Below, piece by piece: positions 15,894 to 30,431 of a stretch of DNA of 33,461 nt. The translations under genes were made by a program, and so were the position numbers. Origin of the DNA: Bacteroidota bacterium (GTDB taxonomy: Bacteria; Bacteroidota; Ignavibacteria; SZUA-365). The stretch lies in the NCBI GenBank assembly GCA_003246455.1, contig QKAF01000156.1, positions 1 through 33,461 on the forward strand, written 5' to 3'. The notes below the pieces were generated by a model. That model was given only the letters and a program-made list of their open reading frames with translations, made no database searches and was not told the DNA's origin. Positions within the stretch are counted from its first letter, which is position 1, and each line of letters begins with the position of its first letter.

Positions 15894-15925
15894 CAGACAG
15901 CGCATCGCTCACGACCGGAACGTAT

Positions 15926-15955
15926 GAGCCATCAGCTATCAGCCATCAGCCATTC
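15926..15955. repeat. Short imperfect tandem repeat (AGCCATC/AGCTATC)
   Basis: About three repeats of a 10/9-bp AGCCATC-type unit (AGCCATCAGCTATCAGCCATCAGCC) lie between the DUF5698 gene and ndk. No protein or hairpin is suggested. Confidence 0.6.
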
Positions 15956-16007
15956 ATATCGACAATCACGTAACATTCACTCAATACAAACCAGAAGGAA
16001 TATCAAC

Positions 16008-16421
16008 ATGCAGAGAACACTGGCCATCGTGAAACCGGACGGCGTGGCGGCGGGACTCGTCGGCGAAGTCGTCAAGCGCATCGAGCAGGAAGGTCTTCGC
16101 ATCGTGGGCATGCGCATGGAGCACATGACGCAGACGAAGGCGGAAGGTTTTTACTACGTCCATCGCGAGCGTCCGTTTTTCGGATCGCTGATGGAATTCA
16201 TGACGTCCGGTCCCGTCGTGCTGATGGCGCTCGAAGGCGATAACGCCATCAAGCGCTGGCGTTCGCTCATGGGCGCGACGAATCCTGAGAATGCCGATCC
16301 GGGCACGATCCGCCGCGACATGGCCACGAGCATCGAACGCAACGTCGTGCACGGCTCCGACGCCGAAGACACCGCGTCGTTCGAAGTGAATTACTTTTTC
16401 ACGGGTACCGAACTGATGTAA
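16008..16421 (+). CDS. ndk: Nucleoside diphosphate kinase
   Basis: A 137-residue enzyme that moves the gamma-phosphate between nucleoside triphosphates and diphosphates through a phosphohistidine. It is complete and of standard length. It has LAIVKPDGV (residues 5-13), the Kpn-loop region HRERPFFGSLMEF, RSLMGATNPENADPGTIR and the catalytic H115 in NVVHGSD. Soluble and cytoplasmic. AAGGA lies 9 bases before the ATG at 16008; the upstream in-frame extension runs through the tandem repeat and was rejected. The next gene is convergent. Confidence 0.96.
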   Translation: MQRTLAIVKPDGVAAGLVGEVVKRIEQEGLRIVGMRMEHMTQTKAEGFYYVHRERPFFGSLMEFMTSGPVVLMALEGDNAIKRWRSLMGATNPENADPGTIRRDMATSIERNVVHGSDAEDTASFEVNYFFTGTELM

Positions 16422-24560: not shown

Positions 24561-24592
24561 TTTGGTCCTGAGAAAAAGGATAAGTACGTTTG
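24561..24592 (+). promoter_or_regulatory. Bacteroidota-type promoter for the flotillin-like gene
   Basis: TTTG (24561-24564), a 20-base spacer, and TACGTTTG (24585-24592) give an exact match to the Bacteroidota consensus TTTG-N19-21-TAnnTTTG. The start would be near 24599, leaving a leader of about 130 bases. The remaining stretch to 24727 shows no clear riboswitch. It is the best promoter in the window and supports the phylum assignment. Confidence 0.6.
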
Positions 24593-24727: not shown

Positions 24728-26116
24728 ATGCTTACCTGGATCATTATCATCGCTGTCGTCGTTCTTGCCGTCGCCGGTTTCATCTTCTGGATGACGCGGC
24801 AGTACCGCAAGGCGGGACCGAATGAAGTGCTGGTTATCTCCGGCAGGAAAAGTTCGATTCTCACGCCCGATGGCACCCAGCAGGAAATCGGGTACAAGTT
24901 CCGCATCGGCGGCGGTTCCTTCGTCAATCCGTTCACCGAGCAGGCCTCGACCCTGCCGATCGAGGTGGTCACGGTGACCATCAAGACGCCGGAAGTGCTG
25001 TCGAAAGACGGCATTCCCATTCTGTCCGAGTCTTCGGCCCAGGTGAAAATCGACTCCAACGAATACTCCATTTTCCTCGCCACGCAGAACTTCATGGGCG
25101 GCGGCACGGATGCGGTGCGTGAAGTCGCGCAGACGGTGCTCGAAGGAAAGGTGCGCGAGTCGATCGGAAGCATGACGATTTCCGAACTGTACCAGGATCG
25201 CCACGAATTCGCCAACCGCGTCTACAACGCCGTTGTCCGCGATCTCGGCAGCATGGGCCTCGTGATGATTTCCTTCGCACTCAAGGACATCGCCGATACG
25301 CAGGGCTATCTCGAAGCGCTGTCGAAGCCGAAGATCGCCGCCGCCAAGCGCGACGCCGTGGTCAAGCAGGCGGAATACGATCGCGACGCGGCCATCTTCG
25401 CCGCGCAGGCGAACAAGGAAGCGGAAGTGGCCAAGCTGACCGCCGCCGCTGAAGTCGCCGGCAGGACCTGGAAGAACGAAGAGCTGAAAGCCAAATCGCA
25501 GATCGAAGTCAGCAAGGTGCGCGCGCAGGCCGACTCCTCGTATGAACTCGAGCGCTTCCGCCTCGCGCAGGAAGTCAAGCAGGAAGAGTACAAGGTCAAG
25601 CTGATCGAGACCGTGGAAATGGCCAAGGTCCAGACCGAGGAAATCAAGCGCAAGGAAAAGGAACTCGAAGCGAACATCATCAAGCCGGCGGAAGCCCGCA
25701 AGGTGCAGATCATTTCCGAGGCCGAAGCCGAGAGCTTCCGCATGCTGAAGGAATCCGACGCCAAGGCGCAGGTCCGCGCGAAGGACAACGAAATCGAAGC
25801 CGAACGCATCAAGATGCTCGGCAAGTCCGAAGCCGACGCGATGGTCGAGAAAGCCAAGGCGTACGAACAGTACAACCAGGCGGCGATGTACCAGATGGTG
25901 CTCGACGTCCTGCCGGAACTCACCAAGAACGTCGCCGAACCGCTCTCTCGCATCGACAAGATCACGCTCGTCGGCGGAACGGACGGCAAGCTCGGCACGT
26001 CGCAGCTCACCGGCCAGATCACCGAAGTGCTCGCACAGGTTCCGGATCTCGTCAAGACGCTTACCGGCGTCGATCTGTCGAAATACCTCAAGGATAAACT
26101 CGCCGGCGAAGACTGA
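24728..26116 (+). CDS. Flotillin-like SPFH/Band-7 protein
   Basis: A 462-residue membrane-anchored scaffold protein. One N-terminal membrane segment (about 3-22) is followed by the SPFH/Band-7 domain (about 30-200; YRKAGPNEVLVISG and ALKDIADTQGYLEALS). A long charged coiled coil (about 200-400), rich in Ala/Glu/Lys, carries repeated EAE and KEKELE heptads. The C-terminus, SKYLKDKLAGED, is typical of flotillins. Flotillins cluster in detergent-resistant membrane domains and organise membrane proteins. A GGAGG lies 5 bases before ATG 24728. It is followed after about 100 bases by the aminotransferase-kinase fusion. Confidence 0.92.
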   Translation: MLTWIIIIAVVVLAVAGFIFWMTRQYRKAGPNEVLVISGRKSSILTPDGTQQEIGYKFRIGGGSFVNPFTEQASTLPIEVVTVTIKTPEVLSKDGIPILSESSAQVKIDSNEYSIFLATQNFMGGGTDAVREVAQTVLEGKVRESIGSMTISELYQDRHEFANRVYNAVVRDLGSMGLVMISFALKDIADTQGYLEALSKPKIAAAKRDAVVKQAEYDRDAAIFAAQANKEAEVAKLTAAAEVAGRTWKNEELKAKSQIEVSKVRAQADSSYELERFRLAQEVKQEEYKVKLIETVEMAKVQTEEIKRKEKELEANIIKPAEARKVQIISEAEAESFRMLKESDAKAQVRAKDNEIEAERIKMLGKSEADAMVEKAKAYEQYNQAAMYQMVLDVLPELTKNVAEPLSRIDKITLVGGTDGKLGTSQLTGQITEVLAQVPDLVKTLTGVDLSKYLKDKLAGED

Positions 26117-26220: not shown

Positions 26221-28575
26221 GTGACGGCAGATAGAATTCATCTCATCGGTTCATCGCCGACGCTGAAGGTCGCCGCGAAAGCCAAGGCGCTCAAGGAGCA
26301 GGGGATCGACGTGATCGACTTCTCCGTGGGCGAACCGGATTTCGGGACCCCGGCCCACATCAAGGAGGCCGCGAAACGCGCGATCGACGAGAACTTCACC
26401 AAGTACACCGCCAACGAGGGCATCCTCCCGCTGCGCAAGGCCATCGCCCGGCAGCTGCAGGAGGAGCACGGACTGAACTACGACCCGGCGTCGGAGATCA
26501 TCGTCTCCAACGGCGCGAAGCACTCCATCTACAACGCCATGATGGCCATCGTCAACGACGGCGATGAAGTCATCATTCCGGCACCCTACTGGGTGTCCTA
26601 TCCCGAGATGGTCAAGCTCGCCAACGGACGCCCGGTCATCGTGCAGACACGGGAGGAGGACGGTTTCCGCCTCACCGCCGCCCAGCTGCGCGATACGATC
26701 AACGCCAGCACCCGGGCGGTGTTCATCAACAACCCTTCCAATCCGACCGGTTCGGGCTACACGCGCGAGGAACTCGAGGCGCTCGCCGAAGTCATCGTCG
26801 AGGAGGACATCATCTGCATCGCCGATGAAATCTACGGCAAGCTGATGTATGACAACCTCAAGTTCACCCGCTTCGCCTCGCTCGGCGAGGAAGTGAAGAA
26901 GCGCACGATCACCATCGACGGCGTTTCGAAAGCGTACTCGATGACCGGCTGGCGCATCGGCTGGGCCGCGGCGCCGAAAGACATCACCGCGGCCATGGCC
27001 AAGGTGCAGAGCCACGCGACGTCGAACCCCAGTTCGGTGTCGCAGCGCGCGGCGCTCGAAGCGTACAAAGGACCCCAGTACGAAATCTCGAAGATGGCGG
27101 CCGAATTCGAGAAGCGCCGCAACTTCGTGGTGTACAAGCTGCAGGGGATTCCGGGCATTTCCTGCCCGATGCCCCGCGGGGCGTTCTACGCATTTCCGAA
27201 TGTCAGCTCTTTTTATCGGATGGAATACGACGGCGTGCCCATTCGCAACAGCTACGGCATGGCCTACTTCCTGCTCAAGCATGCGAACGTGGCCATCGTG
27301 CCGGGCGACGCCTTCGGCAGCGACGACTTCATCCGCATCAGCTACGCCACCTCGATGGCCAACCTCACCGAAGGCATGTCGCGAATCGCCGACGCGCTCG
27401 CGAAGCTGAAGCCGGCCCCGAAGCGCAAGCTGATCAAGCTCGCCAACACCGAAACCGTGATCAAGCACCCGGTGCCGGTGGACTACGACGTCAAAGTCGG
27501 CGTGCGCGATGCGCTGGTGGCTGAGGCCGAAGCGCATCTGAGCTACAGCGGCTACTTCGAATGGAACGCCAATATCAACGGCATGATCGTGCAGCTGCGC
27601 ACCAACGTCGGGCACCTCTACGACTTCTGGGTAGAGAACTGGTATCCCGCGCAGCTCGAAGCCGACATCGAACCGCACGGCGTAATCTACGCGGTGGACG
27701 GCGTGACGGGACGCGAACCGCATGCGTTCTATAATTCCGACACCAAGACCGGCATCCTTTTCAACGCCGATCATTACGGATCCCTGCGCTCCCTGGCGCT
27801 CGGACTCGTCACGGACGTGGCCGAACGCGTCTTCGACATTCATGCCGTACGCGGCCTGACGATGGACGTCGGCGGCGAAGGCGTGCTGCTTCTCGGCCCC
27901 TCGGGAACGAAGAAGACCGAGCTGTTCTGGCGTCTTTTCCAGGAAAGCGAAGAAGTCGCGGTACACAGCAACGACTATGTCTTCCTACGCTACGGCGGGG
28001 GCTATGCGGCCGCGGACAACCCGGAGCGCAAGATGTATATTCAGACCAACGCCGTCAGCACGCATGAAGGACTTGCGAAACTCTTCGACAAGAGTAAATG
28101 CGAAAACGTTACGACGAAGGTCGAAGACTGCCGCAACGACGAGCACAAGCTGCAGGAGTCGTGTCCGCTCAACAGCGGCGCGCCGTACAGTTACAGCTGT
28201 GCGAAGAAAAGCCACGCGATGCTCGATCCCTACTGGCTCGGCGGCATGGCGCGGCACGTCAAGCGCATCGATATCCGTCATGTATTTGTTCTCCGCAACG
28301 ATCCCGTGACCAGTGCCGTGCAGAAGCTCGACATGGACGAGGCGCTGCACATGGTCGAGGCGGGCTATCCCGCCGGGACCTCCGTCGGCGGCAGGCAGCA
28401 GCCGTATTACAACCCGCATCTGCTCGTCAAGTCCGACGAGCGGATGGAGCTGCAGAAACGATTCTTCACGAAGCTGTTCCAGTCCGCCGCCGTCTACCAG
28501 CTCAACGCTGGCACGGCCACGCTCACCGATATGGTGCAGCAGGTGTTGTCACATGTCGGTGCGAACGGAAGGTAA
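26221..28575 (+). CDS. Fusion of a class I aminotransferase with an HprK/PEPCK-like P-loop domain
   Basis: A 784-residue protein read without interruption from a GTG (GAGG seven bases upstream). Residues 1-400 form a complete class-I aminotransferase of the bacterial aspartate aminotransferase type: YTANEGILPLRKAIA, NNPSNPTGSGYTREEL, and the PLP-binding K237 (SKAYSMTGWRIGW). After a short linker, residues about 430-784 resemble the HprK/PEPCK superfamily: GGEGVLLLGPSGTKKTELFW, then HSNDYVFLRYGGG and a late VFVLRND strand. The P-loop (559-567) reads GPSGTKKTE: the usual G of G-K-[ST] is replaced by K564. Whether it still binds nucleotide is uncertain. I know of no described protein with this domain order. 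The aminotransferase part should convert aspartate to oxaloacetate; the kinase-like part may regulate it or phosphorylate something. The next gene is PEPCK-like. Confidence 0.85.
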   Translation: MTADRIHLIGSSPTLKVAAKAKALKEQGIDVIDFSVGEPDFGTPAHIKEAAKRAIDENFTKYTANEGILPLRKAIARQLQEEHGLNYDPASEIIVSNGAKHSIYNAMMAIVNDGDEVIIPAPYWVSYPEMVKLANGRPVIVQTREEDGFRLTAAQLRDTINASTRAVFINNPSNPTGSGYTREELEALAEVIVEEDIICIADEIYGKLMYDNLKFTRFASLGEEVKKRTITIDGVSKAYSMTGWRIGWAAAPKDITAAMAKVQSHATSNPSSVSQRAALEAYKGPQYEISKMAAEFEKRRNFVVYKLQGIPGISCPMPRGAFYAFPNVSSFYRMEYDGVPIRNSYGMAYFLLKHANVAIVPGDAFGSDDFIRISYATSMANLTEGMSRIADALAKLKPAPKRKLIKLANTETVIKHPVPVDYDVKVGVRDALVAEAEAHLSYSGYFEWNANINGMIVQLRTNVGHLYDFWVENWYPAQLEADIEPHGVIYAVDGVTGREPHAFYNSDTKTGILFNADHYGSLRSLALGLVTDVAERVFDIHAVRGLTMDVGGEGVLLLGPSGTKKTELFWRLFQESEEVAVHSNDYVFLRYGGGYAAADNPERKMYIQTNAVSTHEGLAKLFDKSKCENVTTKVEDCRNDEHKLQESCPLNSGAPYSYSCAKKSHAMLDPYWLGGMARHVKRIDIRHVFVLRNDPVTSAVQKLDMDEALHMVEAGYPAGTSVGGRQQPYYNPHLLVKSDERMELQKRFFTKLFQSAAVYQLNAGTATLTDMVQQVLSHVGANGR

Positions 28576-28580
28576 TCCCC

Positions 28581-30431
28581 ATGGCAAAAGATATTTACAG
28601 CAACGACGCCTACAAGAAGTTCTACGAGCAGCTCGTTCCGCTGCTCAACGGACCCAATATCAAGGAAGTCAACCTGAAGTGGCTCGAACCGCGGGTCAAG
28701 GAATATTCGCAGAAGACCGTGTACGGATCCCATGTCTGGCGGTCGGTGCAGAGTTCGCGCCTCGCGGCAAAAACCGTCTATCTCGGTACCGAGAAAGTCC
28801 GCCTTCCGTCACTGCTTCCGTACCAGGAAAAGGTGGTCAAGGGCGCGCCTGACGAACTCGACAAGGTGCTGCACTGGATGAAGACCCTGCCGTTCATCAA
28901 ACTCACGCGGCAGATGGGCAACAACCCCGACTTCAATCCTGTGTGCACGCTTTACCTGAGCGTCGGCGACTGGCGCAATTCGCGTCTCGCATACATGTGG
29001 GGCAACCTGCTCGACGAACCGTCTGGCCGGCCGGGTCCCGCCATCACCATGATCCATATTCCCGAGGAGCATGCCTCCCGTCAGCAGATCCTGACCATGC
29101 CGGAGTTCAACCTGAACATCTGCCTGGGCAGCGACTATCTCGGCGAGGAGAAAAAGGGCTTCCTTCGCCAGGCCATGTGGCTGGCCGACGAGCGCGGCAT
29201 GCTCGGTCTCCACGCCGGTTCGAAAGTGGTGGTCGCACGCGACGCGAAAAGCAATGAGCTGAAGAAGCACGGCGTGATTCTCTTCGGCATGACGGCCACG
29301 GGGAAATCCACCTGGAGCTGCCACCAGCTCGAGATGGATCCCAAGCGCGGCGAGATGACCTATGCGTCGCAGGACGACATCTGCTTCCTTCGCGACGACG
29401 GTTCCGCATTCGGTTCCGAGCACAACTTCTATGTGAAGACCGACGCGCGCAAATCCGACCAGGAAGCGATGTACCACGCGCTCACGCACAAGTCGGCCCT
29501 GCTCGAGAACATCATGGTCGACGCGAAGGGCAACATCGATTTCCTCGACGAGTCGCTCTGCGGCAACGGCCGCGCGGTCGTGCGGATGGATCAGCTCTTC
29601 ATCGAACGCGAGAACAAGCTGATCTCCATCGCGGCGCCGAGCATCAACCTGCCGAGTCTCGACAAGAACGACGCGCTGTGGTTCGCCTTCATCACCCGGC
29701 GCAACACCATCATGCCGTACTCGCAGATGCTGACGCCCGAGCAGGGCGTGCTGGCGTACCTCTTCGGAGAATCCACGCTCAGCTTCGCCGCCAATCCCGA
29801 GAAGGCGGGCGAGTCGGTCCGCATCGTCGGTACCGATGATTTCATCATCGGCAGCCGCGGCGCGAAGGTGAACAAGTTCTACGACATCATCATGAAGCTC
29901 GTCAACCGCTTCCCGGGCCAGGTGAATTTCCGCATCTACAACACCGGCGGCATGGGCGAGATCATCGAGGAGTACGACGAACGCGGCACGACGAAGAAGC
30001 GCATGGTGCGCAAGGCCGAGCGCGTGCCGCTCGAACTGATGGCCGCCATTCAGCGCGGCGACCTGCGCGGCACCAACGTCTACGAGAAAGGCGTGCTCGG
30101 CACCATGTCCATCGTCGAAGCCGACGGCCGCCGCATGGATGAATGGGACGTGCACAAGCTCTACACGCCCGAGCAGATCGATTACTACGTGAAGGACATC
30201 ATCCGCGGCCGCCGCGCCTTCCTTGAGGAAATCGCGAAAGAAGGACTGCGTCCGGAAATCATCGCCGCGGCCGAACGTTCGTTCCGCGCCATGGGCGACC
30301 TCTCCGCGCGCAAGGCCGGCACGGCCTCCGCTCCGGCGTTTGCCCCCGCGGCTCCCGAGCCGCGCGTCATCGTTCAGCGCGAAGAGCCCGTCGCGCGTCC
30401 CCGCAAGCCGGGAGTATGGCGCTGGCGGTAG
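28581..30431 (+). CDS. Divergent PEP carboxykinase (ATP) family protein
   Basis: A 616-residue protein related to ATP-dependent PEP carboxykinase, which makes PEP from oxaloacetate, but clearly divergent. Its kinase-1 loop is GMTATGKST (236-244; usual GLSGTGKT). Other residues in equivalent positions are K191/K192 (EEKKGFLRQ), H211 (GLHAGS), the acid pair D265-D266 (ASQDDICF) and R331 (GNGRAVVR). These match the metal, PEP and nucleotide contacts of the family. Odd features are the missing third acid after DD, extra length (about 540 is usual), and a proline-rich tail (APAAPEPR). It is preceded by GGAAGG, and only 5 bases follow the fusion's stop, so the two are co-expressed. It may complete aspartate to oxaloacetate to PEP. 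Confidence 0.8.
   Translation: MAKDIYSNDAYKKFYEQLVPLLNGPNIKEVNLKWLEPRVKEYSQKTVYGSHVWRSVQSSRLAAKTVYLGTEKVRLPSLLPYQEKVVKGAPDELDKVLHWMKTLPFIKLTRQMGNNPDFNPVCTLYLSVGDWRNSRLAYMWGNLLDEPSGRPGPAITMIHIPEEHASRQQILTMPEFNLNICLGSDYLGEEKKGFLRQAMWLADERGMLGLHAGSKVVVARDAKSNELKKHGVILFGMTATGKSTWSCHQLEMDPKRGEMTYASQDDICFLRDDGSAFGSEHNFYVKTDARKSDQEAMYHALTHKSALLENIMVDAKGNIDFLDESLCGNGRAVVRMDQLFIERENKLISIAAPSINLPSLDKNDALWFAFITRRNTIMPYSQMLTPEQGVLAYLFGESTLSFAANPEKAGESVRIVGTDDFIIGSRGAKVNKFYDIIMKLVNRFPGQVNFRIYNTGGMGEIIEEYDERGTTKKRMVRKAERVPLELMAAIQRGDLRGTNVYEKGVLGTMSIVEADGRRMDEWDVHKLYTPEQIDYYVKDIIRGRRAFLEEIAKEGLRPEIIAAAERSFRAMGDLSARKAGTASAPAFAPAAPEPRVIVQREEPVARPRKPGVWRWR

Follow-up and report, generated by a model that had tools for sequence, protein, structure and literature searches.

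The gene at 26221-28575 (+ strand) of the window, the whole 33,461-nucleotide stretch of DNA analysed here, encodes an aspartate-type aminotransferase that is fused to a PEPCK domain with an eroded active site. Our computational analysis finds that the fusion is conserved across several phyla, that its C-terminal domain has a PEPCK fold, has lost catalytic residues and is under purifying selection, and that the gene lies in a conserved cluster with a flotillin gene and usually with a divergent PEPCK gene, which we call PE. The parts are of known kinds; it is the fusion of a pseudo-PEPCK to an aspartate aminotransferase within a flotillin-PEPCK cluster that appears to be new. In our favoured reading, to which we give an even chance, the pseudo-PEPCK domain tethers or regulates the aminotransferase in an aspartate-oxaloacetate-PEP module with PE, most likely at a flotillin scaffold.

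The fusion gene and its distribution

The open frame has a GTG start, with GAGG a few bases 5' of it, and encodes 784 aa. The aminotransferase domain occupies residues 1-397 (26221..27411, + strand). PF00155 covers residues 30-389 of the fusion (E=1.6e-74) and the PLP lysine, K237, is in place, as in class I aspartate aminotransferases; the closest solved structure to this half is 6f35, aspartate aminotransferase B (E=1.6e-106). The half does not reach the NCBIfam equivalog cut-offs (433 vs 617 bits), and aspartate and oxaloacetate are its predicted substrates.

Relatives were scanned with one genome per species. There were 96 relatives found and 80 kept, six of which start at a contig edge and are uninformative on the fusion. 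In the other 74 (74/74 informative loci) the aminotransferase and the C-terminal domain are in a single open frame. The first-pass annotation of this DNA had described a PLP enzyme (K237) that runs in frame into a P-loop domain and had proposed a check for the fusion in related genomes; its description is borne out by these loci, which span several phyla. It had also considered that relatives might carry two separate genes and that a stop codon had been lost here. This is ruled out by the 74 fused loci: neither the loss of a stop nor an error of sequencing would recur at every informative locus in several phyla.

By record title, the carriers are Ignavibacteria/Bacteroidetes, Calditrichota, Aminicenantes, Acidobacteria, Zixibacteria, Planctomycetota and a few others; the genomes are mostly metagenome bins and some of these taxon labels may be wrong. 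The fusions of L008 (titled Ectothiorhodospiraceae) and L043 (titled Clostridiales) nest with Ignavibacteria-type and Aminicenantes sequences, and their odd placement may reflect mislabelled bins or horizontal transfer. Stand-alone copies of the domain were sought in 296 genomes of the phylum; the matches were the window's genome and G306, both fused, and the remaining matches were P-loop background (18-29 bits).

Family and fold of the C-terminal domain

The pseudo-PEPCK domain (residues 406-784, domain residues 1-379; 27436..28572, + strand) was assigned from an AlphaFold2 model, Foldseek, VIA and a profile match. No curated family scores above its cut-off on these residues, and the best matches are weak HprK/PEPCK matches around the P-loop: PF07475 (E=0.06, 13.3 bits vs a cut-off of 33.3) and TIGR00679 (E=8.6e-4, 18.6 bits vs a cut-off of 240). 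PF01293 gave no match listed up to E=1, and a single-sequence PDB search with the domain gave chance matches only; it was the profile and the fold that revealed the relation to PEPCK.

The AlphaFold2 model of the domain, built on 51 homologues, has a mean pLDDT of 90.8. Foldseek matches it to the ATP-PEPCK 1oen (E 1.7e-17) and VIA to the ATP-PEPCK 2pc9_D (Z 29.8, 342 residues aligned, 2.9 A), and by both the domain has the complete two-subdomain PEPCK fold. GTP-PEPCKs score lower (~Z 23). The structural matches listed are PEPCKs, and HprK is not among them. Profile comparison of the domain gave E 1.8e-6 over 327 columns against canonical PEPCKs and E 2.6e-4, with a modest probability of 42%, against PE. 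Taken together, the whole-domain fold matches of the model to ATP-PEPCK and the agreeing profile comparison indicate that the C-terminal domain is a PEPCK in shortened form and not an HprK.

The first-pass annotation was therefore right to place the domain in the HprK/PEPCK superfamily, in line with the weak similarity seen by sequence. A reading of the domain as an HprK-like kinase is not supported, as both subdomains of the PEPCK fold are present in it. HprK as the family of the domain is rejected on the scores, and there is a separate, true HprK gene elsewhere in the window's genome.

A conserved cluster with flotillin and PE

The first-pass annotation had left out the gene context. Directly upstream of the fusion is a flotillin (SPFH) gene (24728..26116, + strand; 462 aa if read from the likely ATG, in a mechanical frame that starts at 24590), which scores above the cut-offs of both PF01145 (Band_7; 90.6 bits vs 23.6) and PF15975 (Flot; 31.2 vs 27). 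Downstream, PE (28581..30431, + strand; 616 aa) starts 5 bp after the fusion stop. Both neighbours are conserved across phyla. Flotillin is directly upstream of the fusion and in the same direction, often within a few bases, at 66/67 loci with room for it, and PE is downstream at 56/71 loci. The conserved order is flotillin, aminotransferase-pseudoPEPCK, (NDK), divergent PEPCK. The nucleoside diphosphate kinase (NDK) gene lies between the fusion and PE in Zixibacteria and after PE in L011 and L079, and PE comes first, followed by flotillin and then the fusion, at L051 and L052 of Planctomycetes.

The window has an NDK gene of its own (15924-16421; PF00334, E=3.5e-55) ~10 kb upstream of the fusion. 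There is also a second flotillin-like gene in the window's genome (G000:C107:38399-39697), ~30% identical and found in most close relatives too.

PE is a divergent ATP-type PEPCK that PF01293 recognizes (E=1.7e-23, 83.5 bits vs a cut-off of 26.5). Its fold matches 2pc9_B with Z 32.0 over 484 residues, and in the structural alignment its identity to solved PEPCKs is 18-19%. Aligned to canonical PEPCKs, it has the catalytic residues: Y186, K191, K192, H211, K242, D265, D266 and R331 are invariant in 43 sequences. It is under the NCBIfam PEPCK cut-off NF006821 (267.9 bits vs 369), and is predicted to interconvert oxaloacetate and PEP. A search with PF01293 and PF00821 found PE as the sole PEPCK in the window's genome.

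Within the window's class, a canonical ATP-PEPCK is present in 1/16 cluster genomes vs 33/45 others (p=3e-6, uncorrected for kinship). That PE simply replaces the canonical PEPCK fits this class; it fails elsewhere, where both coexist. A canonical PEPCK is also present in at least 14/40 fusion genomes, so that in those genomes the main gluconeogenic enzyme may be one other than PE.

Possible role of the pseudo-PEPCK domain

The location of the fusion beside flotillin, and usually beside a working-looking PEPCK, across phyla suggests a membrane-linked enzyme assembly. The aminotransferase would turn aspartate into oxaloacetate, or the reverse, and PE would interconvert oxaloacetate and PEP, giving a route aspartate - oxaloacetate - PEP that could run in either direction; where the cluster includes NDK, that enzyme would rebalance nucleotides. 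The pseudo-PEPCK would no longer run the PEPCK reaction and would be kept as a docking or sensing module, most likely one that binds the flotillin scaffold and/or PE. With the proteins in contact and localized in this way, oxaloacetate would be made and used at one membrane-associated site, with possible channelling or regulation. A further proposition, that the dead PEPCK domain docks onto the active PEPCK (with NDK in some lineages) as well as onto the flotillin scaffold and so ties amino-acid carbon flux to a membrane microdomain, is tentative and we lean against it in this full form.

Somewhat less probable again is an allosteric sensor that acts on the aminotransferase alone. The domain would bind PEP, oxaloacetate, a nucleotide or some other ligand but would dock onto neither flotillin nor PE, and the cluster would reflect shared regulation. 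The natural exceptions bear directly on this. Five genomes (L032, L036, L038, L042 and L043) have flotillin and the fusion without PE, and a PF01293 search found no PEPCK in them; G306 and L053 have the fusion without this flotillin, a SpoIIE-type phosphatase gene being in flotillin's place. No single cluster partner is strictly required, which counts against the favoured reading. Additionally, the equivalent of E. coli Y207 is invariant in the domain, which may leave some of a ligand pocket in place.

The PEPCK gene near the fusion of G306 is a canonical one, ~2 kb upstream, and takes the place of PE, in keeping with the favoured module. The SpoIIE-type phosphatase genes (PF07228) upstream of the fusion are at L111 3677-4894 and L053 5461-6648.

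The remaining exception is G006, a 98% complete genome that is without the pseudo-domain and without this flotillin and in which the aminotransferase and PE are still adjacent. On the tree its aminotransferase nests inside the fused clade, which indicates that the domain was lost there. This unfused aminotransferase (L098, 7883-9070) has a branch of 0.36 vs 0.038 for its sister, ~10x longer, as if constraint had been lifted once the domain and flotillin were gone. The long branch after loss of the domain counts in favour of a sensor. However, the flotillin link at 66/67 loci, together with the joint loss of flotillin and pseudo-domain in G006 (a single event), suggests more than shared regulation, and we continue to favour tethering or regulation of the aminotransferase in a module with PE.

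Erosion of the active site

The P-loop of the domain reads GPSGTKKTE (residues 559-567; 27895..27921, + strand), with K564 at the PEPCK Gly position and K565 as the Walker Lys. The first-pass annotation had singled out this changed loop and proposed an alignment of it across homologues. In that alignment the residue before the Walker Lys (E. coli G253 position) is K in 58/85 sequences and G in 13/85. The Walker Lys is kept in 62/85 and lost in 23/85 (Arg in 22, Ser in 1), and Thr/Ser follows it in 61/85. The change is therefore real, and it is one part of a family-wide erosion that includes K212, K213 and R333. The functions of the active-site residues of E. coli PEPCK are textbook knowledge. 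In a remote alignment to that enzyme (15% identity, with R65 and H232 the least sure), the K212/K213 positions are S/L in the domain, the R333 position is S/E/A and the D268 position is mostly N, while the equivalent of R65 is unrecognizable and probably gone. The D269 position is always D or E. The domain thus has neither the set of PEPCK catalytic residues nor the canonical P-loop. Because the active-site residues are eroded and the Walker Lys has given way to Arg (22 sequences) or Ser (one), nucleotide-dependent catalysis is, judging by sequence, unlikely as the shared function of the domain.

On a tree computed without the P-loop columns, the members without the Walker Lys group together, near the Planctomycete and Zixibacterial GTGK-type members, and three changes among three P-loop states suffice. 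Other residues are strictly kept: the polar residues R118, E197, R198 and K199 (domain numbering) are invariant in alignment A1, which holds 51 diverse sequences. Two cysteines, C222 and C243 (fusion residues 627 and 648; ~28099-28101 and 28162-28164), are nearly invariant (81/85 and 80/85), possibly as a metal or redox site.

These data bear on another reading, in which the domain is an active member of the PEPCK/HprK superfamily, an NTP-dependent kinase or some other enzyme. Its active site would have been remodelled, the usual PEPCK groups having given way to K564 and to invariant Arg, Glu, His or Cys residues. The frequency of the Walker Lys and of Thr/Ser next to it, the acidic residue at the D269 position, the four invariant polar residues, the two cysteines and the GTGK[ST]-like loops kept in Planctomycete and a few other members are all in keeping with such an enzyme. 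Nevertheless, the lineages with KRG and GRG loops, which are without the Walker Lys, have the same fusion in the same cluster, and most oxaloacetate- and metal-binding residues of PEPCK are gone from the domain. We consider a working enzyme unlikely.

Selection on the domain

The dN/dS of the domain is 0.04-0.10 against three close relatives, and that of the N-subdomain is 0.04-0.06 against two of these. There are >30 invariant columns in the domain among the 51 sequences of alignment A1. The most conserved block (residues 447-476; 27559..27648, + strand; EWNANI...QLRTN..HL..F..EN..P, invariant columns in A1 and the 85-sequence set) is in the N-terminal subdomain, far from the P-loop in sequence. 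Such strong purifying selection shows that the domain is still in use, and the pattern fits a pseudo-PEPCK, a pseudoenzyme with a putative binding role.

It is very improbable that the domain is a functionless remnant, a decaying PEPCK copy: erosion of the P-loop in several lineages and the clean loss of the domain in G006 could be read in this way, but the low dN/dS, the invariant columns and the presence of the domain at 74/74 loci largely refute it. Least credible of all is an artefact, in which a lost stop, misassembly or sequencing error made the fusion or the extra Lys (an error in the Lys having been raised by the first-pass annotation), for which we found no support and which is refuted by conservation, the 74 loci being from assemblies made independently, whole chromosomes among them, and the Lys recurring in 58/85 sequences.

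Significance and comparison with known systems

We found no description of the fusion or the cluster in the openly available literature, and none in such literature on PEPCK pseudoenzymes or on flotillin with aminotransferase or PEPCK. This agrees with the first-pass annotation, according to which no characterized protein is known to have this architecture. To our knowledge, few bacterial flotillins have a known dedicated client, and the cluster provides a testable candidate client that is conserved across several phyla. If the proposition of docking onto both partners is correct, the cluster would give a bacterial flotillin a metabolic client of its own, fixed genetically. An apparent pseudoenzyme derived from a central-carbon enzyme and joined to the preceding step is also a natural experiment on control of the aspartate-to-PEP branch point, for which G006, without both flotillin and the pseudo-domain, is a ready comparison.

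The fusion shares with class I aspartate aminotransferases (PF00155; 6f35) the complete PLP domain, the catalytic Lys and close sequence similarity; it differs in the added C-terminal pseudo-PEPCK domain and in falling below the equivalog cut-offs. In common with ATP-PEPCKs (PF01293; E. coli PckA, Thermus thermophilus 2pc9/1j3b), the domain and PE have the PEPCK fold, but the C-terminal domain is cut to ~380 residues, sits behind an aminotransferase and has lost most of the substrate, metal and P-loop residues. With HPr kinase/phosphorylase (PF07475, TIGR00679) it shares the P-loop region of the superfamily and weak local similarity; it is far below the curated cut-offs, it matches PEPCK when the fold of the entire domain is compared, and a separate HprK is encoded in the genome.

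The upstream gene resembles those of bacterial flotillin operons (SPFH2) in having Band_7 and Flot domains. A 2009 survey of prokaryotic SPFH proteins names NfeD-type partners of flotillins and mentions neither aminotransferase nor phosphoenolpyruvate (PMC2636767); here the neighbours are instead the fusion, PE and sometimes NDK.

Finally, a parallel in kind may be found in pseudoenzymes that partner metabolic enzymes, among them HisZ with the short HisG and the trypanosome prozymes. In these, as perhaps here, a dead relative of a metabolic enzyme is kept as a regulatory partner. In contrast with them, the apparently dead PEPCK described here is joined in one chain to the enzyme one step earlier in the route.
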